From Streptomyces sp. NRRL WC-3742 (GTDB taxonomy: Bacteria; Actinomycetota; Actinomycetes; Streptomycetales; Streptomycetaceae), in the NCBI RefSeq assembly GCF_000720635.1, contig NZ_JOCF01000111.1:1-16732 (forward strand): a stretch of 16,732 nucleotides of DNA, written 5' to 3'. Positions 1 to 16,732 of this stretch are shown here, one piece after another (position 1 is the stretch's first letter; the number at the start of each line of letters is the position of its first letter). The position numbers and the translations under genes are program-made. The notes under the pieces were generated by a model that saw nothing but the letters and a program-made list of their open reading frames with translations, did no database searches and was not told where the DNA came from.

Positions 1-1
1 C

Positions 2-1234
2 GGGGGGGGGCGGGGGCGGGGGCGGCGGGGGTTGCTGGTCGGGGCCGGGGTGCTGGCGGCGGGTGGGGCGCTGTGGGCGCTGGGCCGTTCGGGCGAGGGG
101 GCGGCGCCGGGGCCGAAGCCGAGGCCGGGGCCGACGGCGCTGTCCGGGCCGGCGCCGCTGTGGACGTACCGGGGGCCGGAGGCGATGACCCCGGAGCGGC
201 TGGTCCGCCCGCCGGGGCGGCCGGTGTACCTGTCCGCAGGGGGCCTCCAGGTGATCGACCCGGCCTCCGGCGAGGCCGCGCGGCTGCTCGCCTTCGACCG
301 GCCGGACCCGCGGTGGCCGAGCGACGCCGAGCGGCTCGGCAAGGTCGTCCTCGGGCCCGAGTACCTCTACAGCTCCACCTCCTTCGGCCACCTCGACGCC
401 CGCCACTTCACCGACCCGGCCCGCGACTGGAGCCTGCCGCTGCCTCCCGAGCTGGTCGGCGCGGCCGAGCACTCCGGCCCGGCGCCCACCAATGTGCCGA
501 CCCTGTCCGCCTGCGAGAACGGCGTCCTGTACGGCTCCGTCTGGGACCGCTACCAGGGCGAGGAGACCGGGCCCGACAACCTGGTCTTCGCGCTGCGCCT
601 GGCCGACCGATCCCTCCTGTGGACCGTCCACGAAACGCACGGCGAGCAGCCGGTCGCCACCACCGCCGACGGCACCCGCACCGTCTGCGTGCGCAGCCTC
701 GGCAACCGGGCCGCGCTCGTCGTGCGCGACGCCGCCGACGGCCGGGAGCTGTGGACGGCACCCGGAGACGAGGACCTGCGCTGGTGCACCGCCGGCCCCC
801 GGCAGGTGTTCGTCCCGGACGGCAACGGCGGGGTGCGCGCCCTGCGCCCGAGCGGCGAGGCGCAGTGGACGCACTCCCCCGCCAGGGGCGAGTCCTGGCG
901 GGCGCTGCCGCCGCTGGTGGACGGGGCGCAGGTGTACGTCCCGCGCGACGACGGCCTGGTCACCGCGCACGGCACGGACAGCGGCGCGGTGCGCTGGACG
1001 GCCCGGATGCCCTTCCTGCTGGACCGCCGCAGCCGCCCGGTGGTCGTCGGCCCGACCCTGTTCGTGCCGGGGACGGCGGCCGGCGGGGTCTGCGCGGTGG
1101 ACACCGCGAGCGGGCGCACCCTGTGGACGTTCCGCGACTCGGGCCCCGGCCGGGACGTCTGGGCGCTGGCCGCCGACGCCGAGCGCCTCTACGCCGGGCA
1201 CGACGACGTCCTGCACGCCCTGCCCCTGCGCTGA
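2..1234 (+). CDS. PQQ-like beta-propeller protein, 5' end outside window
   Basis: The frame is open from the left edge, so the beginning of the gene is missing; about 410 residues are visible. The visible N-terminus is a Gly/Arg-rich stretch, then RRG and a hydrophobic segment (LLVGAGVLAAGGALWALG), then a Pro-rich linker. This looks like a membrane anchor leading to an outer domain. The rest is a series of propeller blades with the PQQ-repeat signature, for example AVDTASGRTLWTF, RDAADGRELWTA and HGTDSGAVRWTA. In Streptomyces this anchor-linker-propeller arrangement is common at the C-terminus of Ser/Thr protein kinases and in stand-alone lipid- or membrane-anchored PQQ proteins. Which of the two applies cannot be decided without upstream sequence. 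A TTG at 32 could act as a start, but it lies inside the Arg/hydrophobic anchor and has no ribosome site. The stop codon lies in the first unit of a 14-bp tandem repeat. Confidence 0.75.
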   Translation, partial: GGGRGRGRRGLLVGAGVLAAGGALWALGRSGEGAAPGPKPRPGPTALSGPAPLWTYRGPEAMTPERLVRPPGRPVYLSAGGLQVIDPASGEAARLLAFDRPDPRWPSDAERLGKVVLGPEYLYSSTSFGHLDARHFTDPARDWSLPLPPELVGAAEHSGPAPTNVPTLSACENGVLYGSVWDRYQGEETGPDNLVFALRLADRSLLWTVHETHGEQPVATTADGTRTVCVRSLGNRAALVVRDAADGRELWTAPGDEDLRWCTAGPRQVFVPDGNGGVRALRPSGEAQWTHSPARGESWRALPPLVDGAQVYVPRDDGLVTAHGTDSGAVRWTARMPFLLDRRSRPVVVGPTLFVPGTAAGGVCAVDTASGRTLWTFRDSGPGRDVWALAADAERLYAGHDDVLHALPLR

Positions 1235-3365: not shown

Positions 3366-4349
3366 TCAGCTGCGGTAGGCCGCCCAGGAGTTCGCCATCC
3401 GCTGCGCCTGCCCGGGGGTGAACTGGGTCATGCACTCGTCGTAGCTGTAGTCCATGAAGTTGTGGATCGGGTCGAGCCCCTTCCCCGGGCAGGTGTCGCG
3501 GCCCTCGGGGCAGCCGTAGGCGGCGCTGCGCTCGGGCGGGGTGTCGTCCACGTAGTCGCCCGGGAGCAGGCAGCCGCCCTGGAAGGTGTGGAAGAGGCCG
3601 AGCCAGTGGCCGGTCTCGTGGGTGGCGGTGTTGCCCTGGTTGTAGTGGGTGGCGGGGCCGCCGGGCAGGGAGTCGTCCAGGACGACCACGCCGTCGTCGG
3701 ACGGGTCGGAGCGGTAGGCGCTGGGGAAGGTCGCCCAGCCGAGCAGGGACTGGCCGAGGTGGGCGGTGTAGAGGTTGAGGGTGCCCTGGTCGCCCTTGCG
3801 CAGGGCCGACTTCATGGCCTTCTCGGCCGCCGAGCCGGGGGTCATGCCGTTGTACCAGCCGGCGTTGTCGGTCCACTCGGTCCCAGCCAGTTCGAAGTGG
3901 AACCGGGTGTCGGTGCTGCCCGCGCCCTGGCCGCCGTAGGTGGCGTTGAGGTGGTCGATCTGGGCGTCGACGGCGCCCTGGTCGAGCAGGCCCGCGGCCC
4001 CGTCGTGGATCACGTGGACGTACACCGGCACGGTGGTCGGCACGGCGGCGAGCGGCACGTGGGCGGAGGCGAGCCGGGCCAGCCGGTCGTCCAGGTCGGC
4101 CTGCATGGCCTTCGCCTCGGCGGGGCCGACGGCGTTCGGGTCCTTGCCGGACGGGCCGCCGGCCGGCTTGCGGGCGGCGGCGTCGTAGCCGTCGCAGGCG
4201 GCCGGGACGGCATGGACGGCAGGCCCGGCCGCCGCGGCGTGGTGCGCGACGGGCGCCGCGAACTGGCTCAGACCGGCCGCGGCGACCAGCGCGGCGGCGC
4301 AGGGGAACAGGCGAGGGGTCCGCGGGCGCACCCGGGGAGAACGGCGCAT
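3366..4349 (-). CDS. Secreted zinc metalloprotease, family M43-like
   Basis: A 327-residue exported endopeptidase. The ATG at 4349 is chosen over the frame open further upstream because it is preceded by AGGAGC and begins a signal peptide: Arg-rich [13 protein letters not shown], then a hydrophobic stretch, then Ala-rich cleavage sites near residues 35-42. The zinc site [11 protein letters not shown] (244-254) matches the metzincin consensus HExxHxxGxxH, and [11 protein letters not shown] supplies the Met-turn (Met299). Cysteines flanking the active site (GGC, YGC, DTC, DEC) fit the conserved disulfides of pappalysin/cytophagalysin-type M43 enzymes. The middle part has YVHVIHD and [10 protein letters not shown], both typical of the family. 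The reading frame has no stop between this gene and the ATPase upstream, but the signal peptide and ribosome site argue for a separate gene. The substrate is unknown. Confidence 0.9.
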
Positions 4350-4438
4350 CGGCGCTCCTGACAAGGGAGTTGACGGAGGGTCGGCCGCGCCCCGGGCCCG
4401 CCCGGCGGCGTGCGCAACAACCTGCGCGCCCGCGTGCG

Positions 4439-4498
4439 GTACGACGTGCCGTACGGCACGCGGAACGACACGCGAAACGGCACGCGCGACGACAGGCG
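4439..4498 (-). repeat. Degenerate 12-bp tandem repeat upstream of the protease
   Basis: Five units of 12 bp read on the plus strand as GTACGACGTGCC, GTACGGCACGCG, GAACGACACGCG, AAACGGCACGCG and CGACGACAGGCG. They fill much of the 203-bp gap between the ATPase stop (4553) and the protease start (4349), which contains no other gene. A perfect 16-bp palindrome spans the first two units. Confidence 0.7.
4445..4460. promoter_or_regulatory. Perfect 16-bp palindrome, candidate operator
   Basis: CGTGCCGTACGGCACG is identical to its reverse complement. It lies 96 bp upstream of the protease start, inside the 12-bp repeat block. A dimeric repressor or activator site is possible. It could also be a by-product of the alternating repeat sequence. 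Confidence 0.4.
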
Positions 4499-4552
4499 AC
4501 GGCGTGCGAACGCGTACGGGACGGACGCGCGGGAGCCGCGGACCCGCCGAGA

Positions 4553-5219
4553 CTACGACGCGGTGAAGTCGATCTCCCGCAGGGCGCGCGGCGGCGCGGT
4601 CGAGTACCACCGCCGACGCACAGCCGGCCGGCAGTCCCGCCGCGAGCAGCCGGGCGACGGCTCCCCGGTGCCGGGTGAAGGCGTAGCGCGAGACGCCCTG
4701 CCCGCGCCGGCGCTGCCCGTCGCGGGCCTCGTCCGGGTCGGCGTCCAGCACCAGCAGGTGCACCCGCCTCCCCTGCCGGGCGGCGGCGCGGCACAGCCAC
4801 GCCCGTACCCACGGCAGGGTGCCGCAGTCGTGCACGGCGAGCGCCCCGCCGGCCAGTACGGCGCGGCGCAGCCGCCGGTAGTGGGCGAGCCGGACGAGGG
4901 GGCGGTAGAGGGCGTACGGGAGGCGGGCGGGCAGGCGGGCCGCGTACTCGGCGCGCACCAGCTGGGAGTCGACCAGCGGGGCGCACACGCAGCGGTGCAT
5001 CAGGGTGCTCTTCCCGCTGCCGGGCAGGCCGGAGACGACGAGGAGGTCACCGGCGGGGTAGTGCAGGGCGGCGGGCCCGGGGCCACGTAACTCGTGCCGC
5101 CCGGCGCGGACGGTTTGGACGGTATGGACAGTGTGGACGGTCCGGACAGTGAGCGACTCGGCCGGGCGGGGCGGCGGCACGCGGGGCGCCGCCGCCCGTC
5201 TCGCTCCCGTCCCGGCCAT
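4553..5219 (-). pseudogene. Small P-loop ATPase/kinase-like protein, frameshift near 3' end
   Basis: The ATG at 5219 follows a GGGGGAGAG ribosome site. The protein has a variable, repeat-containing N-terminus (1-39), then [19 protein letters not shown] and a Walker A motif GLPGSGKS (64-71), followed by the adenylate-kinase-fold features [29 protein letters not shown] and [17 protein letters not shown]. This matches a small cytosolic AAA/zeta-toxin-like ATPase common in Streptomyces; its substrate is unknown. Up to LDRAAAR the frame is normal. It then runs without a stop through the intergenic gap into the protease. Removing one base from GGG at 4582-4584 yields LREIDFTAS and a TAG at 4553-4555, giving 221 residues, the ending expected from memory of the family. 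A one-base insertion or sequence error is therefore likely. Apart from its last codons the ATPase core is intact. Confidence 0.7.
5106..5150 (-). repeat. In-frame 9-bp tandem repeat in the ATPase N-terminus
   Basis: Five 9-bp units of the form NNGGACRGT (plus strand) lie in the coding region and encode [14 protein letters not shown] (residues 25-38). The period is a multiple of three, so copy-number change would not break the frame. The segment precedes the conserved domain and is probably a flexible or strand-like extension. Confidence 0.8.
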
Positions 5220-5243
5220 CGGCTCTCCCCCGGTGGTTCACCC

Positions 5244-5278
5244 TTCCTGGGAGCATCGCGCATTCCCAAGAAAGAGTA
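5244..5278 (-). promoter_or_regulatory. Candidate promoter and operator of the ATPase gene
   Basis: On the minus strand, TACTCT (5278-5273) fits a -10 box within an unusually A/T-rich patch. Immediately downstream is an inverted repeat with arms TTCCTGGGA (5244-5252) and TCCCAAGAA (5264-5272), eight of nine bases paired and an 11-base spacer. The repeat lies where the transcript would start, 25 bp before the start codon region. It could be a repressor site or a leader hairpin. No good -35 box is seen. Confidence 0.35.
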
Positions 5279-5317
5279 AAGACCCGTGGTCAGAGCCGCA
5301 CGGCGCCGGACAGGACC

Positions 5318-6244
5318 TCAGGCGAGCTGCGGGGCGACCTCGGAGGCGATGACCTCCAGGTGGTCGAGGTCCTGCAGGTCGAGGATCTGCAGGTAGATCC
5401 GCTGGCTGCCGGCCTCCGCGTACCGGCCGATCTTCTCCGCGACCTCGGCCGGGGTGCCCGCCAGGCCGTTGGCCTTGAGCTCGTTCACCTCGCGGCCGAT
5501 GGCGGCGGCCCGGCGGGCCACCTCGGCGTCGTCGCGGCCGACGCAGGCGACCAGGGCGTTGGAGTACACCAGGTCGTCGCCGGAGCGCCCGGCCTGCTCG
5601 ACGGCGGCGCGCACGCGGGCGAAGTGGCCGGCGGAGTCCTCGGCGGAGACGAACGGCAGGTTGAACTCGTCGGCGAAGCGTGCGGCCAGCGCCGGGGTGC
5701 GCTTGGCCCCGGTGCCGCCGACCAGCACCGGGATGCGGTCCTGGGCGGGCTTGGGCAGGGCGGGCGAGTCGGTGAGGGTGTAGTACTCCCCGGCGAAGTC
5801 GAAGGTGTCGCCGAGCTTGGTGTTCCAGAGACCGGTGATGACGGCCAGCTGCTCCTCCAGCCGCCCGAACTTCTCCTTGGGGAACGGGATGCCGTACGCG
5901 GCGTGCTCGGCCCCGTACCAGCCGGCGCCGAGGCCGAACTCGACGCGGCCCCCGCTCATCGCGTCCACCTGGGCGACCTGGATCGCGGTGACGCCGGGCA
6001 GGCGGAAGGTGGCGGCGGTCATCAGGGTGCCCAGGCGGATGGTGCTGGTGTCGCGGGCGAGCCCGGCCAGGGTGATCCAGGCGTCGGTGGGGCCGGGCAG
6101 GCCGTCGACGTCGCCCATCTTGAGGTAGTGGTCGGAGCGGAAGAAGGCGCTGAACACGCCGAGTTCCTCGGCGGCGCGGGCCACCGAGAGGAGGGTGTCG
6201 TAGCTCGCGCCCTGCTGGGGTTCGGTGAACACTCGAAGATCCAT
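5318..6244 (-). CDS. LLM-class F420-dependent oxidoreductase
   Basis: A 308-residue luciferase-like monooxygenase-fold enzyme. It starts [19 protein letters not shown] and contains the family stretches [51 protein letters not shown] (split by a short loop) and [24 protein letters not shown]. These form the TIM barrel that binds reduced deazaflavin F420 or, in some members, FMN. F420 is the likelier cofactor in an actinomycete. The substrate cannot be read from sequence. The ATG at 6244 aligns with the family start; an ATG three codons upstream (6253) is an alternative, and neither has a strong ribosome site. It is divergent from the small gene at 6386 across 141 bp. Confidence 0.88.
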
Positions 6245-6373
6245 ACGGGCCATTCTGGTACGGATCGCCCCCGGGGCGCGGCACGGAACCGGCCAACCAC
6301 GGGAGACGGCCGGGGTGGCCAAGGTCTCAGCACGGAACCGTCACGGGCGGCCGGTCGGACCCGCGCGCTCGCC

Positions 6374-6379
6374 TACCGT
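6374..6379 (+). promoter_or_regulatory. Leaderless-type -10 box
   Basis: TACCGT ends six bases before the ATG at 6386, so transcription would begin at or next to the start codon. No Shine-Dalgarno sequence is present in this gap (GGACGG). This geometry is the hallmark of leaderless actinobacterial genes. No convincing -35 is seen. Confidence 0.6.
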
Positions 6380-6385
6380 GGACGG

Positions 6386-6736
6386 ATGTTCGCGACCTCC
6401 GACGACTCCTTCCGGCGCTCCCCCGACGAGCCGGCCGGCTGCCCGCTGCCCGGCATCGTGGCCGCCTTCACGCCCCGGCTGGCCGAGTTCGCCTTCGAGC
6501 CCGGCTTCGTCGCGGCCGTCGACCAGCACGCCTCGATGCTGCGCGAACTGCTGTACGCGCAGGGGCCGGAGCTCGCGCCCCGGCCCCTGGACCGTGAGGA
6601 ACTGTCGGACTACGCGCTGGGCTTCCTGGACGCGCTCGCCGAGATCGGCTGGCGGGAACCGGTCGGCCACGACTACGCCGTGCTCCGGCTGACCGCGATC
6701 TGCTGGCTGGTGCGCGAGCAGGGGCTGCTCGTCTGA
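6386..6736 (+). CDS. Small conserved actinobacterial protein of unknown function
   Basis: 116 residues ([16 protein letters not shown]... to [11 protein letters not shown]), soluble, acidic and probably all-helical, without signal peptide or membrane segment. Distinct stretches are [39 protein letters not shown] (about 19-57, read in pieces) and [15 protein letters not shown] recall similar short proteins in Streptomyces genomes annotated as a DUF family, but cannot name the family with confidence. The ATG at 6386 is supported by the -10 box placed for a leaderless transcript. A much longer open frame extends upstream, but it runs antisense through the oxidoreductase gene and is not coding. 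Its 3' end faces the channel-like gene with a 6-bp gap. Confidence 0.72.
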
Positions 6737-6742
6737 AGCGTT

Positions 6743-7540
6743 CTACCGCTCCTCGATGCCCGGGGCCGGGGAGCCGCCCGGGCCGGTCTGGGCGGTCGGG
6801 TTCACCGGCTGGTTGGCCAGGGCGTCGGAGCGGCCGGCCTGGTAGGCGCTGCCGCGCAGCCGGGCGGTCTCCCGCTCGGCGCCGTCCAGCCAGCGCTCCC
6901 AGCGCTGGCGCATCGGCATGATCAGGCCGCCGCCGACGCCGACCACCAGCACGCCGGTGATGGTGGCGAGCACCGCGATCAGCACCGGGCCCGTGATCGC
7001 GGTGGCGATCCCGGCCTGGCCGAGGGCCGCGATCACGCCGAGCGCCACGATGAACGCCCAGACCAGGGTGGAGACGGTCCGGCCGTACGAGGCGGCGGCG
7101 AGCGAGTTGCGGACGATGTCGCGCACGCCGTTGGCGATGGCCATGGCGACCACCAGGATGACGACGGCGACGATGCCCCTGGGCAGCCAGGCGACGATGC
7201 TGTGGATCATCACACTGATCGGGTTCGGCCCGAAGACGCCGAACGCCAGCTGCAGCGTCATCAGCAGCACCGCGTAGTAGACGATCTTGCAGACGATTCC
7301 GGTCAGGTCGTACTTGGACCCGCTCAGGTAGCGGTCCATCCCGGCCCTCTCGGCGACCCTCTCGGAGCCGATCCTGCGCAGCACGCGGTCCAGCACCTTG
7401 GCGATCGCCTTCGCGACGAACCACCCGATGACCAGGATCGCCAGGAAGGCGATGAACTGCGGAATGAACTTGGCGATCTTGTTCCAGGCTTCGGTGAAGC
7501 CCGATCCGAAGTCGACGGAGAGTGCGAGCTGCTGAGCCAC
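6743..7540 (-). CDS. Membrane protein with mechanosensitive-channel TM-helix repeats
   Basis: A 265-residue inner-membrane protein. The GTG at 7540 follows GGAGG with 5-base spacing and gives VAQQLALSVDFGSGFTEAW; the open frame continues far upstream but without support. Five hydrophobic segments are visible at about 26-48, 80-103, 118-138, 156-176 and 181-207, with the conserved family pattern AFLAILVIGWFVAKAIAKVL and VVVILVVAMAIANGVRDIV-like helices. This resembles the conserved TM-helix family related to small-conductance mechanosensitive channels (CmpX-like). The MscS beta domain is absent, and the C-terminus is a Gly/Pro/Gln-rich tail. The role is probably envelope or osmotic stress, but channel activity is unproven. 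It is divergent from the hydrolase gene. Confidence 0.85.
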   Translation of the reverse strand: MAQQLALSVDFGSGFTEAWNKIAKFIPQFIAFLAILVIGWFVAKAIAKVLDRVLRRIGSERVAERAGMDRYLSGSKYDLTGIVCKIVYYAVLLMTLQLAFGVFGPNPISVMIHSIVAWLPRGIVAVVILVVAMAIANGVRDIVRNSLAAASYGRTVSTLVWAFIVALGVIAALGQAGIATAITGPVLIAVLATITGVLVVGVGGGLIMPMRQRWERWLDGAERETARLRGSAYQAGRSDALANQPVNPTAQTGPGGSPAPGIEER

Positions 7541-7685
7541 GGAGTCCTCCACTCGGTGAGCACGACGCGACCGACGGCGCCGGGCGGCCCCCCACCCTTC
7601 GTGGATAGCAGCCGCCCGCCGGGACCGCGCGCGCCCGGTGCCCGGGATGGTCCCCTCGGGTGAACACGCCCGGCGGGCGCGCGCG

Positions 7686-7691
7686 TACAGT
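7686..7691 (+). promoter_or_regulatory. -10 box upstream of the alpha/beta hydrolase
   Basis: TACAGT fits TANNNT and lies 23 bases before the GTG start, leaving a short leader with a GGTCCGAGG ribosome site. A -35 hexamer at normal spacing is not clear. The divergent intergenic region 7541-7714 (174 bp) holds nothing else recognisable. Confidence 0.45.
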
Positions 7692-7714
7692 GGCAGCGGC
7701 GAAAGGGTCCGAGG

Positions 7715-8551
7715 GTGAGCATCGGCGAGGCGGACAGCGGTACGGCGGCGAGCGGCGCGACGGCGGACATGACGGTCGCGGACATGACGGTCGCGGGCGG
7801 TTCGGTCACGGACGGTACGACCGCGGGCCACCTGGCGCTCTCCTGGCGGGCCCTGCCCGAGCGGCCCCGGGCCGCGGTCCTGGTGCTGCACGGCGGCGAG
7901 GAGCACAACCTCGCCCGGCCGGGAGCCGTCAACCTGCCGCTGCTGCGGATGCACGGCTTCCTGCGGCCGCTGGCCCGCCAGGCCGCGCAGGACCGAATCG
8001 CGGTGGGCACCGTCCGCTACCGGCACCGGGGCTGGAACGGCCCGCGCGCCGACGCGGCCCGGGACGCGCTGGCCGCGCTGGACGAGCTCGCGGAGCAGCT
8101 CGGTCCGGTGCCGACGATCCTGATCGGCCACTCCATGGGCGGGCGGGCCGCCCTCCAGGCCGGCGGGCACCCGGCGGTGACCGGGCTCGTCGTCCTCGCC
8201 CCCTGGTGCCCGCCGCAGGACCCGTGCGAGCAGCTGGCCGGGCGGGACGTGCTGATGCTGCACGGCGACCGGGACCGGGTGACCCCGCCCGCCGACACCC
8301 TGGCCTTCGCCGCCCGCAGCCGCGCCGCCGGCGCCCGGGTCTGCGGCTACACCGTCGGCGGCAGCGGACACGCGATGCTCCAGCGCCTGCCCGACTGGCA
8401 CCGCGCCACCACCCGCCTCACCGGCGCCCTCCTCGGCCTGCGGCCCCTGCCCGCCGAGACGGCCTCCGCACTCGCCCTGCCCCCGGCCTCCGGCGAGGCG
8501 CTCACCCTGCCCCTGCCCCGCCAGCCGCGCAGGACCCCGGCCAACCCCTGA
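7715..8551 (+). CDS. Alpha/beta hydrolase
   Basis: A 278-residue serine hydrolase. After a low-complexity N-terminus (1-37) the fold begins with AAVLVLHGGEEHN (oxyanion-hole HGG). The nucleophile elbow is GHSMGG (Ser140), the acid is in LHGDRDRVTPP (Asp187), and the histidine is in GGSGHAML (His219), so the triad is complete. The core resembles small dienelactone-hydrolase/lysophospholipase-like cytosolic esterases; the substrate cannot be inferred. The GTG at 7715 is supported by the upstream -10 and purine-rich site. The start could instead be one of the ATG codons at the repeat (7769, 7784), which would remove most of the non-conserved extension. There is no signal peptide. The stop codon lies in the first unit of a 14-bp repeat. 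Confidence 0.85.
   Translation: MSIGEADSGTAASGATADMTVADMTVAGGSVTDGTTAGHLALSWRALPERPRAAVLVLHGGEEHNLARPGAVNLPLLRMHGFLRPLARQAAQDRIAVGTVRYRHRGWNGPRADAARDALAALDELAEQLGPVPTILIGHSMGGRAALQAGGHPAVTGLVVLAPWCPPQDPCEQLAGRDVLMLHGDRDRVTPPADTLAFAARSRAAGARVCGYTVGGSGHAMLQRLPDWHRATTRLTGALLGLRPLPAETASALALPPASGEALTLPLPRQPRRTPANP
7763..7822 (+). repeat. In-frame 15-bp tandem repeat in the hydrolase N-terminus
   Basis: Two identical units GCGGACATGACGGTC (7763-7777, 7778-7792) are followed by two diverged units (7793-7807, 7808-7822). They encode ADMTV, ADMTV, AGGSV and TDGTT. The period preserves the frame, and the repeat lies upstream of the catalytic domain. Confidence 0.85.
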
Positions 8552-8596
8552 CGGCCAACCCCTGACGGCCAATCTCTGACGGCCAATCTCTGGCGG
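8541..8596 (+). repeat. 14-bp tandem repeat spanning a stop codon
   Basis: Four units: CCAACCCCTGACGG twice, CCAATCTCTGACGG, then CCAATCTCTGGCGG. The first unit holds the hydrolase stop (TGA 8549-8551). The TGAs at 8563 and 8577 fall in the remaining two frames. Apart from this repeat I see no clear element between the hydrolase and the ribosome site of the next gene. Confidence 0.9.
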
Positions 8597-8716
8597 CCGG
8601 CCCCGGCATCGCTCGAACGCCCGGTGTCGCTCGCGCGGGCGGGCGGGGTGCATGACCGACCATCGGGAATGGTTCGTCGGCGACCCTCCCGGGTCGAGGG
8701 CCGGAAGGAGCGGTGG

Positions 8717-11020
8717 ATGGGCAGGATGCGGTGGGTCGGGAGTTCGCTGAGGGTGGTGCTCGTGACGGCGTCGCTGCTGGGAGCGGGGGTGGCCGGGCCC
8801 GGTGCGGCGCGCGCCCTCGACGCGGAGCCGGCGGCGGCGAGCGAGCCGCTGTTCGCACCGAAGGTGGCGTACAAGGCGGGTGACTACCCGTTCGAGGTGG
8901 CCCTCGGGGACTTCCACGGGAGCGGCCGCCTCGACATCGTGGCGAGCAACAACTACGACAACACCGTCTCGCTCTTCCCCGGCAACGGCGACGGGACGTT
9001 CGCGGCGCCGGCGACGATCCCGGTCGGCGAGATGCCCGGCAACCTGCTGACCGGGCGGTTCACCGGCAGCGGGCGGACGGACCTCGCGGTGGCCGTCGGC
9101 ACGCACCCGGTGAGCAACGTCGGCTCCGTCGAGGTGCGCCTGGGCAACGGCGACGGGACGTTCCAGCCCGTGCGCAGCTACGCCGTGGGGGCGTCCCCGA
9201 AGGGGCTCGCCTCGGCGGACCTGCGGGGCCTCGGGCGGCTCGACCTGGTGACCGTCAACAGGAACGACAACACGGCGTCGGTGCTGCTGGGCAACGGCGA
9301 CGGCACCTTCCAGCCCCAGCAGAGCTACCCGGTGGGCAACGACCCGGAGGGCCTGGCCCTCGCCGACCTCGACGGCGACGGCCGCATCGACCTGGTGGCC
9401 GCCAACGCCCAGGACGGCACGGTCTCGGTGCTGCGGGGCAACGGCGACGGCACCTTCCAGCCCCAGCGCACCTACCCAGTCGGCCGGTTCCCCCTGGCCG
9501 TGGCCGTCGGCGACCTGCGCGGCGTCGGGCACCCCGACCTGGCCGTGGCGGTGGCAGGGGCGGACGCCTTCGCCGTCCTGCCGGGCAACGGGGACGGCAC
9601 CTTCGGCGCGCCGACCGTGATTCCGCTGGAGAAGCAGGCGTTCCCCTCCGAAGTGGCGATCGCCGACCTCGACGGCGACGGCCACCGCGACCTGGTCGGC
9701 GGAGTCAACAACGCCAACGTGTCGGTGCTGCTCGGCAACGGCGACGGCACCTTCCAGCCGCGGCAGGACTACCGGATCTCGGCGTTCGGGGCGCGCGTGG
9801 CCATCGGTGACCTCAACGGCGACGGCAGACCGGACGTCGTCGCCGGCGACGACAGCTCCGTCGACGTCCTGCTGAACATCGCCAGACGCCACGTCACCAC
9901 CACCCTCGGCTCCGACCCCGACCCCTCCGCCTACGGACAGCCGGTCACCCTCACCGCCACCGTCTGCCCCGACCTGGCCACCACCGGGACCCCGACCGGC
10001 ACGGTGACCTTCCGCGACGGGACGACGGTGCTGGGCACCGCTCCCGTGCGGGCGAGCGGCGGCTGCGGCGCCGCGACGCTCGCCACCTCCGCCCTGGGGG
10101 TCGGGCCGCACGACCTCACCGCCGAGTACGGCGGCGACGCCACCTTCCTCGGCGCCACCTCCGGGGTGCTCATCCAGCGGGTCACCCGGGCGGCCGTCGT
10201 CACCACGATCTCCTCCTCACCCGACCCGGCGTCCTTCGGCAGCCCGGTCACCTTCACCGACACCGTCTGCCCGGCGCCGACCAGCACCGGCCCCGCCTCC
10301 CCGCCGAGCGGCACGGTCACCTTCTCCGACGGCTCCACGACCATCGGAACCGGCACCCTCGCCCCTGGGGGAGGCCCCAACTGCGCGACCACGCACATCA
10401 GTTGGTCCCACCTGCTGCCCGGATCCCACACCGTCACGGCCCAGTACCCGGGTGACGACGCCTACCTCCCGGGCGCACCGGAGAGCATCGCCCAGCAGGT
10501 CGGCTGCGATCGCACGATCACCGGCCCGGCCGGGTCCGTCCTCGCCACCGGCACGAGCACCTGCCTGGTGGACGCCACCGCCGACGCGGTGGTGGTGCGG
10601 CCGGGGGCGGCGCTGTTCGTCTCCCGCTCGACGGTCGGCACCATCGCCTCGCGCGGCGCCTCCTTCCTCGGCGTGTGCGCGAGCACCGTCACCGGATCCG
10701 TGCAGGTCGTCGGCTCCACGGGGTTCGTGGTGATCGGCGACCCGGTGGACGAGGGCTGCGCCGGCAACCGGATCGACGGCTCGGTCGTCCTCAAGGACAA
10801 CACCGGTGGGCTGGTCCTCGACGACGACCGGATCGGCGGCAGCACCGTCGTCGACGGCACCACCGGCGCGGGCCCGTTCCCGCGCGACGACCGGGCGCTG
10901 ATCACGGCGAACACCGTCGGCGGCTCGCTGGCCTGCTCCGGCAACACCCCGCCGCCGGGCGACGACGGACGGCCGAACACCGTCGTCGGCCCGCGCACCG
11001 GGCAGTGCGCGAACCTCTGA
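8717..11020 (+). CDS. Secreted FG-GAP/VCBS-repeat protein with Ig-like domains
   Basis: 767 residues. The ATG at 8717 follows GGAAGGAG; a GTG frame 31 codons upstream has no such site. A signal peptide (hydrophobic 12-30, cleavage probably after AARA) leads to seven FG-GAP/VCBS propeller repeats (about 44-390), six ending in GNGDGTF and several containing DLDGDG-type calcium loops. Two bacterial Ig-like domains follow (about 390-490 and 490-595; PTGTVTFRDGTTVLG and PSGTVTFSDGSTTIG), each with paired cysteines. The C-terminal about 170 residues (from CDRTITGPAG) have short repeated strands such as STVTGSVQVVGSTGFVVIGD and end SLACSGNTPPPGDDG...GQCANL, a probable beta-solenoid domain seen in Streptomyces exoproteins. 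There is no sortase motif or catalytic signature. The likely role is surface adhesion, carbohydrate binding or scaffolding. Base use is uniform with the neighbours. Confidence 0.9.
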   Translation: MGRMRWVGSSLRVVLVTASLLGAGVAGPGAARALDAEPAAASEPLFAPKVAYKAGDYPFEVALGDFHGSGRLDIVASNNYDNTVSLFPGNGDGTFAAPATIPVGEMPGNLLTGRFTGSGRTDLAVAVGTHPVSNVGSVEVRLGNGDGTFQPVRSYAVGASPKGLASADLRGLGRLDLVTVNRNDNTASVLLGNGDGTFQPQQSYPVGNDPEGLALADLDGDGRIDLVAANAQDGTVSVLRGNGDGTFQPQRTYPVGRFPLAVAVGDLRGVGHPDLAVAVAGADAFAVLPGNGDGTFGAPTVIPLEKQAFPSEVAIADLDGDGHRDLVGGVNNANVSVLLGNGDGTFQPRQDYRISAFGARVAIGDLNGDGRPDVVAGDDSSVDVLLNIARRHVTTTLGSDPDPSAYGQPVTLTATVCPDLATTGTPTGTVTFRDGTTVLGTAPVRASGGCGAATLATSALGVGPHDLTAEYGGDATFLGATSGVLIQRVTRAAVVTTISSSPDPASFGSPVTFTDTVCPAPTSTGPASPPSGTVTFSDGSTTIGTGTLAPGGGPNCATTHISWSHLLPGSHTVTAQYPGDDAYLPGAPESIAQQVGCDRTITGPAGSVLATGTSTCLVDATADAVVVRPGAALFVSRSTVGTIASRGASFLGVCASTVTGSVQVVGSTGFVVIGDPVDEGCAGNRIDGSVVLKDNTGGLVLDDDRIGGSTVVDGTTGAGPFPRDDRALITANTVGGSLACSGNTPPPGDDGRPNTVVGPRTGQCANL

Positions 11021-11027
11021 CAGACCG

Positions 11028-11926
11028 TCAGTCCACCGCCGTGGCGCGGGCGAGGGCGGCGGCGCGGATCTCGGAGGGGCCACAGGCCCACACCAGGAGC
11101 CCCCGCCGGCCCCGGCCAGCGGGCGGTCCCAGGCCGCGCGCACCAACCGGGGGCGCCGGACGGCGAGTTCGGCCCGCGCCCAGGGCGGCAGGAGGCCGAT
11201 GGAGGCGTTCGTCAGGATCCGTACGGCGGCCCGCTCGCGCCTGCTGCGCCCGAACCCGCGCAGCAGGCGCAGCACCTCCAGCGCCGGCGGGGTGACCGCC
11301 AACTCCGGGCGCAGGCGCGCCAGACAGGCCCGCACCTCGGCGCGGGAGCGGGGCACCTCGCGGGCGCCGAGGCGCTCGGCGACGAGGGCGGCCTCGGCGT
11401 AGTAGCGGTCGCACTCGGCGGCGGTCAGGGGGGTCCGGGCGAACGCCTGGTAGCCGGTCAGGAAGCAGACCACCTCGGCGGTGTGCACCCAGGTGAGCAG
11501 GTGCGGGTCGTCCGCGCGGTAGGGGCGGCCGTCCGGCGCGGTGCCGCTGATCCGGGGGTGAATGCGACGCACTCCCGCGATCGCCCGCTCGGCCGCCTCC
11601 GTGGAGCCCAGCGTGGTGGTGGAGACGAACCGAGCCGTGCGGTGCAGCCGGCCCGTCGGGTCCTGCCGGAAGTCCGAGTGGGCGTCGACGGCGGCCATCG
11701 CCAGCGGGTGCAGCGACTGCAGCAGCAGGGCCGCGAACCCGCCCACCAGCATCCCGGCCGGGTGCCCGTGCACCCGCCACACCATGCTGGAGGGCCCGAA
11801 GAGCCCGGGATCGCCGGCCGGTCGGTCGTAGCGCTCCAGGTGCAGGTCGTCCCCGTGCACGGTCGCGTTGATCTCGGCCAGCAGCCTCGCCCGCACCGCC
11901 GCCACCGGCGTACGCCACCCGTCCAT
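11028..11926 (-). pseudogene. MpaB-type oxygenase (DUF2236 family), frameshift near 3' end
   Basis: The N-terminal part (MDGWRTPVAAVRARLLAEINATVHG...) contains the DUF2236/MpaB/latex-clearing-protein landmarks: GPSSMVWRVHGHPAGMLVG, LLQSLHPLAMAAVDAHSDF, HRTARFVSTTTLGS, RRIHPRISG and LTWVHTAEVVCFL. The histidines of these motifs are candidate haem or metal ligands. After AWDRPLAGAGG the frame changes. The expected ending LLVWACGPSEIRAAALARATAVD, with its TGA at 11028-11030, lies in another frame. Adding one base to the five-C run at 11100-11104 joins them into 299 residues. Uncorrected, the frame runs antisense through the next gene. The start is ATG 11926 or the adjacent GTG 11929, both served by GGGGGAGG. 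It is convergent with the FG-GAP gene with a 7-bp gap. Families of this type oxidise diverse substrates, and none can be assigned here. Confidence 0.75.
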
Positions 11927-11960
11927 CACGCCCGCCCCTCCCCCGTCCGGCCACGCTCCC

Positions 11961-11975
11961 GCCGATCGTATCGGC
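11961..11975 (-). promoter_or_regulatory. Candidate -10 box within an inverted repeat, MpaB-type gene
   Basis: GCCGAT-CGT-ATCGGC is a perfect 6-bp inverted repeat. On the minus strand it contains TACGAT (11970-11965), a TANNNT -10 box located 39 bp upstream of the ATG at 11926. Overlap of a symmetric site with a -10 box suggests repression, but no -35 is clear. Confidence 0.35.
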
Positions 11976-12120
11976 CGTGACGTGCCCCGCCCCGGCGGGT
12001 GCAGTGGCGCGGATCACACCGGAATGCGGGCGGCCCGTGAAATGCGGCGGCCACCACGGTGGTTGGCACGGCAGTCACCCGCGTCCCCGCGCACATCACC
12101 GCCACCTCCGAGGAATCCTC

Positions 12121-13248
12121 ATGACCGTCTCCGCGAACCCGGCCTCCCGCGCGGCCGAGATCCTCTCCCGGCCCGTCACGATCAACGGGCTGACCGTCCC
12201 CAACCGCATCGTCATGGCGCCGATGACGCGCAGCTTCTCCCCCCAGGGCGTGCCCGGCGAGAACGTGAGCGCGTACTACGCCCGCCGCGCCGCCGCGGGC
12301 GTGGGCCTGATCGTCACCGAGGGGACGTACGTCGGCCACGAGTCCGCCGGGGAGAGCGCCCAGATCCCGCGCTTCGACGGCGAGGAGCAGCTCGCCGGGT
12401 GGGCCCGCGTCGCCGAGGAGGTCCACGCGGCGGGCGGCACGATCGTGCCGCAGCTCTGGCACGTCGGCATGGTCCGCAAGCAGGGCAAGCCGCCGTTCAA
12501 CGACGCCCCCGCCATCGGCCCGTCCGGCATCACCCTGGACGGCGCCGAGGGCGAGGGGCGGGCGATGACCCGCGCCGACCTGGACGCCGTGATCGGCGCG
12601 TTCGCGCAGGCCGCCGCGTCCGCCGAGCGGATCGGCTTCGACGGCGTCGAACTGCACGGCGCCCACGGCTACCTGATCGACCAGTTCCTGTGGGAGCACA
12701 CCAACCGCCGCACCGACGCCTACGGCGGCGACCCGGTCGCCCGGACGAAGTTCGCGGCCGAGGTCGTCGCCGCCGTGCGCGCCGCCGTCTCCCCGGAGTT
12801 CCCGGTGATCTTCCGCTACTCGCAGTGGAAGGCCGGCGCCTACGACGCCCGCATCGCCGGGAACCCGCAGGAGCTGGAGTCGATCCTCACGCCGCTCGCC
12901 GAGGCCGGGGTCGACGCCTTCCACGCCTCCACCCGCCGCTACTGGATCCCGGAGTTCGAGGGCTCGGACCTCAACCTGGCCGGCTGGACCAGGAAGCTCA
13001 CCGGCCGCCCGGCCATCACCGTCGGCTCGGTCGGACTCGACGGCGACGTCGTCCGCGCCTTCGCGGGCGAGGGCGCGGGGGTCGAGGGCATCGACAAGCT
13101 CCTCGACCGGCTGGAGCGCGACGAGTTCGACCTCGTCGCCGTCGGCCGCGCCCTGCTCCAGGACCCGCAGTGGGCTGCCAAGGTCCTCTCGGGGCGCCTC
13201 GACGAGCTGCAGGCGTACAGCGCGGCGTCGCTGCGCACCCTGAGCTGA
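12121..13248 (+). CDS. Old Yellow Enzyme family FMN ene-reductase
   Basis: 375 residues. The ATG at 12121 follows CCGAGGAAT at a normal distance. It is an FMN-binding TIM-barrel NADH:flavin oxidoreductase/alkene reductase that would reduce activated C=C bonds with NAD(P)H. Family marks in order: PVTINGLTVPNRIVMAPMTR (about 18-37), IVTEGTYV, PQLWHVGM (110-117), AMTRADLDAVIGAFAQAA, FDGVELHGAHGYLIDQFL (173-190; His179/His182 pair for substrate carbonyl binding), NRRTDAYGG (195-203), and near the end PAITVGSVGL and AVGRALLQDPQWA for FMN phosphate binding. Length and motifs are complete. It probably acts in cytosolic detoxification or secondary metabolism. It is divergent from the MpaB-type gene, and its stop codon opens a short repeat followed by a strong terminator. 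Confidence 0.93.
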   Translation: MTVSANPASRAAEILSRPVTINGLTVPNRIVMAPMTRSFSPQGVPGENVSAYYARRAAAGVGLIVTEGTYVGHESAGESAQIPRFDGEEQLAGWARVAEEVHAAGGTIVPQLWHVGMVRKQGKPPFNDAPAIGPSGITLDGAEGEGRAMTRADLDAVIGAFAQAAASAERIGFDGVELHGAHGYLIDQFLWEHTNRRTDAYGGDPVARTKFAAEVVAAVRAAVSPEFPVIFRYSQWKAGAYDARIAGNPQELESILTPLAEAGVDAFHASTRRYWIPEFEGSDLNLAGWTRKLTGRPAITVGSVGLDGDVVRAFAGEGAGVEGIDKLLDRLERDEFDLVAVGRALLQDPQWAAKVLSGRLDELQAYSAASLRTLS

Positions 13249-13296
13249 GCACCCTTCGCCGACCACCGCGAACTGAGCACCCAGAGCTGAGCACCA
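13243..13296 (+). repeat. Short repeat of about 14 bp spanning a stop codon
   Basis: GAGCTGAGCACCC (13243-13255), a degenerate unit, GAACTGAGCACCC (13270-13282) and GAGCTGAGCACCA (13284-13296); the last two start 14 bp apart. The first copy contains the ene-reductase stop (TGA 13246-13248), and the other copies repeat the TGA at 13274 (another frame) and 13288. Confidence 0.75.
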
Positions 13297-13299
13297 AAC

Positions 13300-13335
13300 C
13301 GGTGGCCCGTCGTGCGAAGACACGACGGGCCACCG
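13300..13335. terminator. Strong bidirectional terminator hairpin
   Basis: CGGTGGCCCGTCGTG (13300-13314) pairs perfectly over 15 bp with 13321-13335 around the loop CGAAGA. It lies between the convergent ene-reductase and MTA phosphorylase genes, so it can serve both. Confidence 0.88.
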
Positions 13336-13341
13336 CCGCCC

Positions 13342-14118
13342 CTACTCGGCCTGCCCGTCGCGGTGTTCCTGCTCGGCCGACCTGCCGTCCAGGACCTGGC
13401 CGTCCAGGGCATGGGAGCACGGGCAGTCCCGCTCGGCGGGCAGGTTCTCCAGCGCCTTGAACAGCACCGTCCGCAGCCGGTCCACGTTATCGGCGAAGAC
13501 CTCCAGCACCTCGGCGTGGGTGACGCCCTCGCCGCTCGCCACACCGGCGTCGTGGTCGGTGACCAGTGCCAACGAGGCGTAGCAGAGGCCCAGTTCACGG
13601 GCCAGGACGGCCTCGGGGTGGCCGGTCATGCCGACCACCGACCAGCCGTTGGCCGCGTACCAGCGGGACTCGGCGCGGGTGGAGAAGCGCGGCCCCTCGA
13701 TCACCACGAGCGTGCCGCCGTCGACCGGCTCCCAGGCTTCGGCGGCGGCCGCGTCCAGGACGGCCCGCCGCCCGACCGGGCAGTACGGGTCCGCCATCGG
13801 CACGTGCACCACCTCGGGCACCGAGCCTCCCCCAGCCTCCGGCCGGGGGGACCCCCATGCCAGCGGCAGCCCGTCGTAGAAGGTCTGCGCCCGGCCCGAG
13901 GTCCGGTCCACGAACTGGTCCGGCACCAGCAGCGTGCCCGGCCCGTACTCCGGCCGCAGCCCGCCCACCGCGCACGGCCCGAGCACCTGCCGCACGCCCA
14001 GCGAGTGCAGCGCCCACAGGTTGGCCCGGTAGTTGATCCGGTGCGGGGGCAGCCGGTGCCAGCGCCCGTGCCGGGGCAGGAACGCCACCGTGCGCCCGGC
14101 CACCTCGCCCGGGGCCAC
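13342..14118 (-). pseudogene. MTA phosphorylase family, N-terminally truncated
   Basis: Most of an S-methyl-5'-thioadenosine phosphorylase is present: VAFLPRHGRWHRLPPHRINYRANLWAL (read in pieces), LGPCAVGGLRPEYGPGTLLVPDQFVDRT, VIEGPRFSTRAESRWY, VVGMTGHPEAVLARELGLCYASLALVTD and EVFADNVDRLR. The family normally begins about 45-50 residues earlier with a GVIGGSGFY phosphate-binding strand. Here that part is absent. Homology-like sequence (EGEPAPTVAPGEVAG) reaches back only to the stop of the methyltransferase gene at 14147. The only start is GTG 14118, without a ribosome site, so any translation would depend on coupling. Without the phosphate loop, activity is doubtful. An 11-residue extra segment (AWGSPRPEAGG), encoded by an inserted palindromic element, interrupts the loop after YDGLPL. 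It was probably once a methionine-salvage enzyme. Confidence 0.7.
13827..13857. repeat. Streptomyces-type short palindromic repeat inside the MTAP gene
   Basis: A 31-bp C-run/G-run element with core CCTCCGGCCGGGGGGAC and outer CTCCCCC and CCCCCA. From memory it matches a short palindromic repeat dispersed in Streptomyces genomes, usually between genes. Here it sits in the coding frame and adds about 11 codons. Confidence 0.6.
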
Positions 14119-14146
14119 TGTAGGAGCCGGCTCGCCCTCGGGCGGC

Positions 14147-14980
14147 TCAGGCGGTGCGCCGAGGGCGGGCCACCAGCATGACGGCGTCGTCGCCGATCCG
14201 GTCGGTGCCGGTGGCGAAGTGCTCGCGCAGCGGCGGCAGCAGGGCTTCGCGCAGGGCGGCGAGCTTGGGGTGGCCGGGGTTCCAGTACCCGGCCAGGGCC
14301 TCGGCGGCGGCCCGGGACTTGGCCTCGGCGCCCTCCTCCGGGAAGACGACGTCGACGCGGGCCCGGGTCAACGAGACGTCCGCGAAGCCGTGTTCGGCGA
14401 GGAGGTGGGCCGCGCGGTCGAGCAGGTAGCCCTGGTGGTCCTCGGGTTCGCCGAGCAGAGCGGCGCAGGTGCGGTTCCACAGCGCGATCAGCTCGTTGTC
14501 GGGCGCGCCCTGGACGAGGACGACCTTGGCCTCGGGGTGCGAGGCGTCGACCGTGCGGGCCATCTCGGTCACCGCCATGTCGGGGTCGTCGGTGTAGTGC
14601 AGCAGCCAGGTGGCGACGGCTGCGTCGAACTCGCCGTCGCCCAGCGGCAGTTCCTCGGCCCAGCCCGGCAGGACGGTGACGCCGTGCTCGGCGAGCGGCC
14701 GCATGGCGGCCGCGCGGGCGAGGTGCGGCTCCACGGTGGTGACCGCACCGAGGCGGTCGGCGACGGCCCGCGCGACCGCGCCCGTGCCGCCGCCGATCTC
14801 CACGACGCGCCGGTTGCCCGCGAGGGTGTCGACGACCAGGGCGATGTCGTGGCGCTCGCAGCGGGCCTCCATGCCGAGCCAGCCCTGCTCGCTCAGCCCG
14901 TGCGCGCCCCGGTAGTCGAGGGGCAGCGGGTACGGGCCGGCCAGCGAGTCGAGGGGTCGGACGGTGGATTCCATGGTCAT
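14147..14980 (-). CDS. Class I SAM-dependent methyltransferase
   Basis: 277 residues. The ATG at 14980 (MTMESTVRPL) has GAGGAGC nine to ten bases upstream; TTG 14983 and ATG 14974 are alternatives. It has a Rossmann-fold SAM-binding motif I VVEIGGGTGAVARAVADRL (59-77), an acidic motif at TVEPHLARAAAM, motif III-like LPLGDGEFDAAVATWLLHY, and a complete C-terminal region ending ARPRRTA. It resembles the ubiquinone/small-molecule methyltransferase group (Methyltransf_25/11); the acceptor is unknown. It directly abuts the truncated MTA phosphorylase, whose missing N-terminus ends at this gene's stop codon. A possible -10 box TAGTGT lies at 15034-15029; a -35 is not clear. The region 14981-15223 holds no convincing gene. 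Confidence 0.87.
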   Translation of the reverse strand: MTMESTVRPLDSLAGPYPLPLDYRGAHGLSEQGWLGMEARCERHDIALVVDTLAGNRRVVEIGGGTGAVARAVADRLGAVTTVEPHLARAAAMRPLAEHGVTVLPGWAEELPLGDGEFDAAVATWLLHYTDDPDMAVTEMARTVDASHPEAKVVLVQGAPDNELIALWNRTCAALLGEPEDHQGYLLDRAAHLLAEHGFADVSLTRARVDVVFPEEGAEAKSRAAAEALAGYWNPGHPKLAALREALLPPLREHFATGTDRIGDDAVMLVARPRRTA

Positions 14981-15178
14981 CAAGGGGTGCTCCTCGTTCC
15001 GGACGTGGGGATCATCGAACCGGCCCGGACACTACACTGAGGAATCATCCCAACACCGTCGGTCGTCAAGGCGCGTTGACATATGCCCGCATCCCCCCGA
15101 GGCTCCCCGTCCCATGACCAGCGGCACTGACGAAAACCTCTCCCACTACTTCGCGTACCGCGACCACCGCCTCCCGAC

Positions 15179-15216
15179 GGGCCGGCGCCACCCCCCGCTC
15201 GAGGCGGCGCCGGCCC
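15179..15216 (-). terminator. Terminator hairpin of the PheS-like gene
   Basis: GGGCCGGCGCC (15179-15189) pairs perfectly with GGCGCCGGCCC (15206-15216) around a 16-base loop. It begins 7 bp beyond the stop of the PheS-like gene. Confidence 0.8.
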
Positions 15217-15223
15217 ATGGCCG

Positions 15224-16360
15224 TCAGCGCTCGCCCGCCGCCCACTGGTGGGCGCTGCCCTGGTGGACGGCCGCGTAGACGCGGTCGCGCAGCAGGTTGG
15301 CGTCATGGTCGGTGAGTGTGCGCCCGAGGTGGCGCAGGACCACCTTCAGCAGGACGTTCTTCTGCTCCGGGCGGGCGCCGAGCCGCGCCAGGGCCTGCGG
15401 TGGGAGATCGGTGCACGGCGTCTCGGCGAGGATCTCCACCGTCTCCACGCAGTCGGCGTCCGGCCCGAGGGCGTCGCGGACCCGGTCCCCGAGGTCCTCC
15501 GCCAGGTCGTCGCGGTCGACGGCGACCGACAGGTCCCGGCGGACCGCAGGCATCGCCGACACCGGCCGGTACGGGGTCAGGTCGGTCATCTGGGCGGCGA
15601 CGGACGGCTCGGCCGAACGCAGGATGCGGATGTCCGGAACGCCCTTGAGCAGCATCAGCATCCGGTCCAGCCCCATCCCGAGCGCGAGACCGCTCCACTC
15701 GGCCCCCAACCCGGCACGCTCCAGCACCCGGGGGTGCGCCAGGCCGCACTCCGCGACCTCGATCCACTCCCCGTCGCACTCCACGTCCACCTGACGGCCC
15801 GACAGGGTGTACGGGTGGACGCGGTCCTCGTGGCGGTGCTTCGCCCCGGGCAGGAGCGCCTCGACGAGAGTCGTCACCATCCCGTCCAGGTCGGCGGTGG
15901 TCAGGGCGGCCGGGCGGCGGCTGAGCCGCCACAGGTCGAGCTGGTGGGGCGTGCCCGTGTGCAGCCGGTCGATGCTGTCGCGGCGGTAGACCAGCCCCGG
16001 GCAGGCCAGGAGCACGTCGTCGGAGGAGTCCCGGGGCTGCTCCGCAGCCAGGGCACGCAGCGCGGCCGGGACAAGGGCGCTGGAGTGACTGCGCAACATG
16101 AGCCGGTCGTCGACGGTACGGGTGTAGCGGGTGTCGCGGGTGATGTCGTCGCTGCGGTAGCCGAGGTTGTCGTAGTTGTCCTCGACCGTGACGGTGCGCT
16201 CGCCGCGCCACCAGCGGACCTGGCAGCCCCACTCCTCCGCCAGCGCGTCGACGGCCCGGGCGAGGACGAGTTGGAGGGCGTGCGGTCCGGCGGCGGGATC
16301 GCTGAGGTCCCGGACGGAGAGGTCACGGGCAAGGTGTTCGGCGGAGAGATGAGCAGACAT
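15224..16360 (-). CDS. srmL: PheS-related ligase with fused FDX-ACB domain (SrmL-like)
   Basis: 378 residues. The ATG at 16360 follows AGGAGG. It is a class II aminoacyl-tRNA-synthetase catalytic core related to PheRS alpha: motif 1 LMLRSHSSA (87-95), motif 2 VYRRDSIDRLHTGTPHQLD (124-142, Arg126), motif 3 GLALGMGLDR (224-233). A C-terminal ferredoxin-fold anticodon-binding-like domain follows (264-366; PAVRRDLSVAVD, RTLTDHDANLLRDRV). Bacterial PheS lacks this C-terminal domain, which normally closes PheT; the arrangement recalls monomeric mitochondrial PheRS. The PheS N-terminal coiled coil and any PheT partner are absent here. The substrate pocket differs from PheS: FPF of FPFTEPS is HPY here (182-184), and LGCGMVHP is AECGLAHP (203-210). 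RefSeq, as I recall, names this Streptomyces family 'PheS-related mystery ligase SrmL'; its substrate is unknown. It lies about 250 bp downstream of an rRNA operon. Confidence 0.8.
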   Translation of the reverse strand: MSAHLSAEHLARDLSVRDLSDPAAGPHALQLVLARAVDALAEEWGCQVRWWRGERTVTVEDNYDNLGYRSDDITRDTRYTRTVDDRLMLRSHSSALVPAALRALAAEQPRDSSDDVLLACPGLVYRRDSIDRLHTGTPHQLDLWRLSRRPAALTTADLDGMVTTLVEALLPGAKHRHEDRVHPYTLSGRQVDVECDGEWIEVAECGLAHPRVLERAGLGAEWSGLALGMGLDRMLMLLKGVPDIRILRSAEPSVAAQMTDLTPYRPVSAMPAVRRDLSVAVDRDDLAEDLGDRVRDALGPDADCVETVEILAETPCTDLPPQALARLGARPEQKNVLLKVVLRHLGRTLTDHDANLLRDRVYAAVHQGSAHQWAAGER

Positions 16361-16606
16361 GCGTTCGGCCTCCTGGCCAAGAGCGGTGACGGGGACTCAC
16401 GCCCCCCAGCCCCTGGGCTCCACCGCTCGACGGGGCCGGCCCGACTCAGCTCCCGAGACGTGGCGAAGTCCGACCCCTGCGGCGCCCTTCGGGGGCCAGG
16501 GGGCCGGTAAATCGGCGAATGATCGCTACGACGGCCACACGAGGACTGTAGCCCGGCCGCCCGAGGCCCGTCTCCTCGTTTTCTGCTCCGGGCTCCCGGA
16601 AACGCA
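16361..16606 (-). other. Gap between rRNA terminator and PheS-like gene
   Basis: No gene is recognised in these 246 bp. A GC-rich hairpin can form from about 16474 to 16502, with outer arms CCCCTG and CAGGGG and an inner GGCGCCC-TTC-GGGGGCC stem. It lies in the leader region of the PheS-like gene and could be a second terminator or an attenuator. No clear promoter is visible. Confidence 0.4.
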
Positions 16607-16641
16607 AAGAACCCCCATCCGGAATCCGGATGAGGGTTCTT
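16607..16641 (-). terminator. rRNA operon terminator
   Basis: AAGAACCCCCATCCG (16607-16621) pairs with CGGATGAGGGTTCTT (16627-16641) with one wobble and a 5-base loop, just after the 5S rRNA 3' end. On the transcribed strand it is followed by TTGCGTTT, a modest T-rich tail. Confidence 0.9.
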
Positions 16642-16649
16642 CACAATGA

Positions 16650-16732
16650 TTGTTCGGCGGCGTCCTACTCTCCCACAGGGTCCCCCCTGCAGTACCATCG
16701 GCGCTACGAGGCTTAGCTTCCGGGTTCGGAAT
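16650..16732 (-). rRNA. rrf: 5S ribosomal RNA, 3' part
   Basis: The reverse complement reads ATTCCGAACCCGGAAGCTAA, then GCGCCGATGGTACTGCAGGG, GACCCTGTGGGAGAGTAGGA and CGCCGCCGAACA, the conserved actinobacterial 5S sequence. The first about 35 bases lie beyond the right edge. The exact 3' end is uncertain by a few bases. Confidence 0.95.

Follow-up and report, generated by a model that had tools for sequence, protein, structure and literature searches.

The contig NZ_JOCF01000111.1 of Streptomyces sp. NRRL WC-3742 (positions 1 to 16,732, hereafter the window) carries on its minus strand, at 15224..16360, an open reading frame (ORF) of 378 amino acids with an ATG start, the product of which belongs to the NCBIfam family NF051887, "PheS-related mystery ligase SrmL". 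We propose, with a probability of roughly 0.7, that SrmL is an auxiliary phenylalanyl-tRNA synthetase (PheRS) of the single-chain, mitochondrial-like type, held in reserve beside pheST and induced through an upstream leader when Phe-tRNA is short. What leads us to this reading is the architecture of the protein together with a Phe-codon leader found in Actinomycetota, on a plasmid of Pseudomonadota and in phages, and a serS gene adjoining the SrmL gene in a megaphage. The proposal offers a testable function for a family so far named a mystery ligase, and the architecture of mitochondrial PheRS is now seen in bacteria and huge phages.

A proposed single-chain synthetase beside pheST

The window protein aligns with the whole SrmL profile (1-349 of 349) at 519.5 bits, against a cut-off of 300, and is thus a full member of the family. 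A PheS-like class II core at residues ~25-262 (Pfam PF01409, 4.3e-31) is followed by a C-terminal FDX-ACB fold at ~268-366, which scores 26.8 bits with PF03147, under the cut-off of 31.1, yet is present in the precomputed annotation of the protein. The predicted fold match to mitochondrial PheRS spans all of SrmL including FDX-ACB (model 1..371 on chain 26..415). Core and FDX-ACB thus lie in one chain without PheT, which is the single-chain PheRS architecture; the part of PMC3275996 available to us describes this form as the mitochondrial one. In the proposed mechanism SrmL would join a PheS-type catalytic core to its own anticodon-binding FDX-ACB domain, would need no PheT partner and would lack an editing domain.

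An earlier note on this DNA had described a stand-alone, catalytically intact PheS-like ligase with a fused FDX-ACB domain, and the domain and fold matches and the arginines of class II motifs 2 and 3 bear this out: R126/R127 and R233 do not vary across the 74 aligned sequences (A2, including the window protein; homologue lists comprised the best 120 of thousands of matches). Neither a PheT-like part nor a coiled coil was seen within the 378 amino acids, as that note had also said. The pocket changes it had pointed out are likewise as described, with FPF of PheS replaced by HPY and LGCG by AECG, so that the FPF/LGCG pocket of bacterial and organellar PheRS is not present in SrmL; H182, Y184, T185, E204, C205 and G206 are invariant in the same alignment. 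FPF and LGCG are also absent from bona fide cytosolic PheRS, where NPY and GNSG stand at these places, and a cytosolic pocket lacking both is described in the available part of PMC3275996.

The source genome (8.74 Mb, 233 contigs) holds the separate housekeeping pair for which the earlier note had asked, with pheS (290 bits) adjoining pheT (614 bits) on contig C51; SrmL is therefore extra. In the tree that it had also called for, SrmL falls outside the PheS clade, with a support of 100/100 for the separating branch. The housekeeping PheS of the same genome (L001, 1476-2628) reads LRTQTS and FRQVEG at the places where HTS and FHQ stand in the majority of the six compared PheS. Two more PheS-like paralogues in the family of the window's genus (L036 and L037) have no FDX-ACB end, and their pockets read YPYTEPS/IIGAG and FPYATPG/IMGGG.

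A phenylalanine-codon leader and its RNA

Upstream of the SrmL gene, on the same strand, lies a leader ORF with a GTG start at 16446..16538, encoding (M)AVVAIIRRFTGPLAPEGRRRGRTSPRLGS followed by a stop. Its Phe control codon is the TTT at 16509..16511, and a -10-like element, TACAGT, at 16545..16550 stands 6 nt before the leader start codon; neither leader nor element appears in the earlier note. The Shine-Dalgarno sequence of SrmL itself, AGGAGG, is read at 16369..16374.

A short ORF with a Phe codon precedes SrmL at all 50 actinobacterial loci examined (window, L003-L011, L043-L082) and at 55 of 57 SrmL loci overall. These counts leave out a fragment (L012), the second piece of L083 (L084), and L002 and L013-L028, short duplicates from genomes already represented by the window or L043-L057. 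Among the actinobacterial leaders, of which MPGQRWFSGPRSANVRRPEGAHA, MLGVRRFIRPRLAVPAAGANRRALT and MTYRTRFGRPPTVAD are further examples, F-x-x-P is found in 49 of 50 and R-x-F-x-x-P in 41 of 50. TANNNT ends 6 or 7 nt ahead of the leader start at 43 of the 50 loci (24 and 19, respectively), and a leaderless transcript is therefore expected, in which the SrmL mRNA would begin at the leader start codon; that the leader is translated is suggested by its conservation. The exceptions in spacing are six Actinoplanes loci and L082, where the strict -10 test failed and the leader starts were placed by hand.

The leader signature, with any Phe, is absent from the 323 other genes at 26 of these loci and from 10 housekeeping pheS loci. 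When starts were taken from the crude gene caller it was recovered at only 10 of 24 SrmL genes, because that caller mis-sets starts. The leader pattern, allowing up to 3 mismatches, occurs once each in 15 of 70 genomes of the genus, the same 15 that carry SrmL. The Phe codon is TTT at 49 and TTC at 6 of 55 loci, although TTT accounts for 2.15% of the Phe codons (63 of 2930) in the genes called at 26 of these loci; given that both codons occur at the same place in the leader, the amino acid appears to be the kept feature.

Leaders were also found with more distant relatives. A genome of another class (G816) has MAASQRRRFPCPPVVRGVERRSR, the Glutamicibacter plasmid has MSWQQRFSSPRPGNGRGVLDVRL, and in Azotobacter MNNRSHRFSRPWVRSDQDRAARA is followed by a GC hairpin and then TTTTCTTTT. 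The most telling relatives are AT-rich, namely a phage (L087, MNTNTTFNFFFSHKMV) and a viral contig (L089, MNMLNKNNFSFFMFDFFGTQARGAILLKE), the leaders of which are rich in Phe, with a T-run hairpin behind each. Terminators likewise lie behind the leader at 5 of 6 Actinoplanes loci and in Azotobacter (L085). No Rfam family, T-box included, scored above threshold in the leader, and the weak matches look like chance.

Four nucleotides behind the Phe codon of the window begins arm 1 (16492..16504, minus strand), which is complementary over 13 nt to arm 4 (16401..16413, minus strand), and the gap from codon to helix is 3 to 5 nt at 45 of 53 loci. In the minimum-free-energy structure of the window leader, a hairpin comes immediately after the Phe codon, and a distinct domain forms further downstream. 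Of 108 anchored cells in 12 chosen loci, 106 are paired, where re-dealing the arms gave 91 on average and 101 at most, and the pair types differ on both sides at 6 of 9 positions; both figures are biased in that each helix had been selected for pairing. These were 12 of 27 distinct helix pairs, near-copies, the six Actinoplanes loci and L072 (no helix met at that place) having been dropped. In a close set of 13, pairing was present in 96.8% of cells, compared with 36-55% when the arms were slid.

These features suggest the following switch. When Phe-tRNA is plentiful, the ribosome would pass the leader Phe codon and the RNA downstream would take a non-permissive fold. When Phe-tRNA is short, through inhibition of or damage to PheRS or through Phe starvation, the ribosome would stall on the Phe codon and cover arm 1, the RNA would refold and SrmL would be made. 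On this proposal Phe would be the substrate and tRNA-Phe the acceptor, shortage would turn the switch on, and in GC-rich lineages the switch might act on either transcription or translation. We consider the Phe sensor well supported and the output of the switch less so.

Several results weigh against the proposal. The window protein scores below the cut-offs of the profiles for both bacterial PheS (TIGR00468, 98 bits against 237.45) and mitochondrial PheS (TIGR00469, 106.6 bits against 258.35), the branch of SrmL in the tree is very long (2.57), and with H182, D142 and E204 its pocket is more polar than that of bacterial PheS. The leader ORFs were picked by requiring Phe near the start, the actinobacterial ones have a single Phe codon, and no such leader was found at the SrmL loci of the viral contigs L088 and L090. 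Covariation in the close set of 13 was not above that of shuffles, because the arms hardly vary, and the stability of the window leader is not unusual (z -1.7). No T-run terminator was seen in the window leader, and a simulated stalled ribosome did not consistently expose the Shine-Dalgarno sequence of SrmL (5 up and 7 down among the 16 of 55 loci that passed the start and Shine-Dalgarno filter).

Distribution and gene neighbourhood

SrmL is sporadic. In profile searches of 394 genomes from the family, 16 had it over the cut-off, and 15 of these belong to the window's genus; at the level of the class, 26 of 394 genomes did, from 8 of 138 genera. Within a phylum-wide sample of 296 genomes the window's own genome alone exceeded the cut-off, and the diverged SrmL of G816 is broken into two pieces by what appears to be a frame break of one base. 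Relatives over the SrmL cut-off are borne on plasmids of Azotobacter chroococcum (51.5% identity, 514.7 bits) and Glutamicibacter nicotianae (51.2%, 524.0 bits), and two phage copies score 423.4 and 434.3 bits; a plasmid of Corynebacterium diphtheriae has a partial relative. A 634-kb uncultured phage has a relative at 39% identity, and several relatives of the phage copy, among the 120 matches listed, sit on contigs above 500 kb. A viral scan with alignment A1 as query gave 4 loci, and with a single phage query no relative. In a control, Synechococcus elongatus gave an NF051887 match at E 1e-50, under the cut-off, from which cyanobacteria seem to hold a relative; a TIGR00469 scan at E 1e-40 had no match anywhere, S. 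elongatus included, at a threshold that is uninformative.

The comparison of neighbours proposed in the earlier note brought out no conserved partner. By crude gene calls, 12 of 15 re-fetched loci of the family (L046-L057) have neighbour blocks in common. A single gene family links L045 to them, none links the window, L003, L004, L005, L043 and L044, and the Actinoplanes loci form two further groups; SrmL lies in at least six unrelated neighbourhoods. A conserved operon partner was accordingly rejected, and SrmL behaves like a solitary, moved gene. On a 508-kb viral contig (L088, 121-4089) serS, a short hisS-like ORF and SrmL lie in a row: serS is full length (440 bits, cut-off 301.65), and SrmL starts at the end of the hisS-like ORF (150 bits, cut-off 286.75). 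On a 517-kb viral contig (L090, 1850-2992) the ORF ahead of SrmL contains a stretch resembling polynucleotide kinase (Pnkp, 54 bits, far under its cut-off) and possibly serves tRNA repair. As many as 15 tRNA synthetases can be encoded by a huge phage, according to the part of PMC7162821 available. The Glutamicibacter plasmid, which comes from sludge around a pharmaceutical factory, has a gene annotated as a Cmx/CmrA chloramphenicol exporter just before SrmL (L086, 3323-4504).

In the window the gene follows an rRNA operon, as the earlier note had stated, a 5S gene preceding it. Its suggestion that rRNA read-through could tie expression to growth is disfavoured by a strong intrinsic terminator between 5S and the leader promoter (16606..16642, minus strand; 17-bp stem, z -4.5) and by the gene's own -10-like element. 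Elsewhere in the window, a single ORF at 3366-5219 matches both AAA_33 ATPase and Peptidase_M43, and ARAGORN gave a candidate tRNA-Gly with anticodon acc at 11109-11187.

Alternative readings and known systems

The earlier note had taken the changed pocket as a sign of an unusual substrate or of a role away from tRNA, and the Phe-codon leaders at 55 of 57 loci speak otherwise, as do the fold resembling mitochondrial PheRS, the Phe-rich phage leaders with their terminators, and NPY/GNSG in cytosolic PheRS. Its reading of SrmL as a repurposed ligase, taken as one that charges no tRNA and instead modifies a protein or forms an amide, could appeal to the altered pocket and to the database name "mystery ligase"; given that the anticodon-binding domain is kept and placed as in mitochondrial PheRS, that a Phe-codon leader precedes the gene and that serS adjoins it in a phage, we regard this as very improbable. 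Somewhat more credible, if still unlikely, is that SrmL selects, or charges tRNA-Phe with, a Phe-like compound other than Phe, such as a hydroxylated or modified Phe, in its polar pocket. The constant His, Tyr, Asp and Glu at the pocket positions and the separate, long-branched clade would suit such a substrate; however, no biosynthetic neighbours recur, the proposed sensor reads the charging of tRNA-Phe, and cytosolic PheRS uses Phe despite similar replacements, according to the available part of PMC3275996.

A different doubt concerns the leader. Drug-sensing stall peptides precede erm or cmx genes, and SrmL might similarly be made when an antibiotic stalls ribosomes on its leader. The conservation of other leader residues in GC-rich loci and the Cmx exporter beside SrmL in Glutamicibacter fit this idea, but of the leader residues Phe alone is shared by all 55 (a set selected for Phe), the two AT-rich leaders keep runs of Phe and not the flanking residues, and the Arg and Pro codons lie in or beside the pairing arm and may be conserved as RNA. 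We judge it improbable.

The proposal of an auxiliary PheRS can be carried further, and tentatively, leaning towards doubt, we raise the hypothesis that SrmL is a spare PheRS tolerant of inhibitors, disseminated by plasmids and huge phages, that a Phe-tRNA attenuator turns on when the normal PheRS is poisoned. It draws on the sporadic spread, the plasmids and the one neighbouring chloramphenicol exporter. Bacteria do keep drug-resistant second synthetases, and TrpRS1 of Streptomyces coelicolor is tied to indolmycin resistance, as reported in the available part of PMC9437257. Were this so, natural PheRS inhibitors would be common in soil and water, and bacteria and phages would be using a mitochondrial-style enzyme otherwise described from organelles; resistance would hint at natural inhibitors, as yet unknown, that act on an antibiotic target, and at a resistance route relevant to drug developers. 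A small enzyme in a single chain might also be of use in work on the genetic code.

Neither a bacterial PheS-FDX-ACB fusion nor the SrmL leader was found among the matches listed in literature searches, and the papers listed for the name "SrmL" use it in other senses. The part of PMC1262725 at hand cites gamma-proteobacterial pheST as attenuator-controlled, reports attenuation of trpS and leuS in Actinobacteria and, for the phenylalanine operons of that group, describes no conserved RNA structure; the corresponding part of PMC2965389 does not name pheS. The NCBIfam entry gives the family a name without a function, and its line contains neither the leader nor the function proposed here.

With mitochondrial and organellar PheRS (FARS2; TIGR00469) SrmL shares the single-chain architecture of core plus ACB domain at ~26% identity, but its pocket is HPY/ECG/HQ-D rather than FPF/LGCG/HQ-E, it scores under the TIGR00469 cut-off, and it forms a separate clade. 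A different single-chain PheS-FDX-ACB protein, on a 91-kb viral contig (L091, 2965-3975), has the canonical FPF/LGCG pocket and passes TIGR00469 (346.7 bits, cut-off 258.35); its closest relatives among the matches listed include plant organellar PheRS and many metagenomic proteins of 330-345 amino acids, which raises the testable idea that organellar PheRS came from a phage or bacterial source. Compared with bacterial PheS (TIGR00468) of the (alpha-beta)2 enzyme, SrmL has no adjoining PheT and no N-terminal coiled coil, has its own ACB domain and has a changed pocket.

In its proposed control, the system resembles E. coli pheST, which is preceded by the pheM leader with Phe codons. In both, a leader peptide that encodes Phe precedes a known or proposed PheRS gene, and the L087 and L089 leaders look like pheM, whereas the actinobacterial leaders have one Phe codon each, a leaderless start and arms rich in G and C. 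TrpRS1 of S. coelicolor is an auxiliary, ribosome-attenuated synthetase. Like SrmL it is a second aminoacyl-tRNA synthetase in actinobacteria for which induction by a ribosome stalled on the cognate codon is proposed; TrpRS1 is, however, an ordinary TrpRS, whereas SrmL departs from the architecture of the housekeeping enzyme.
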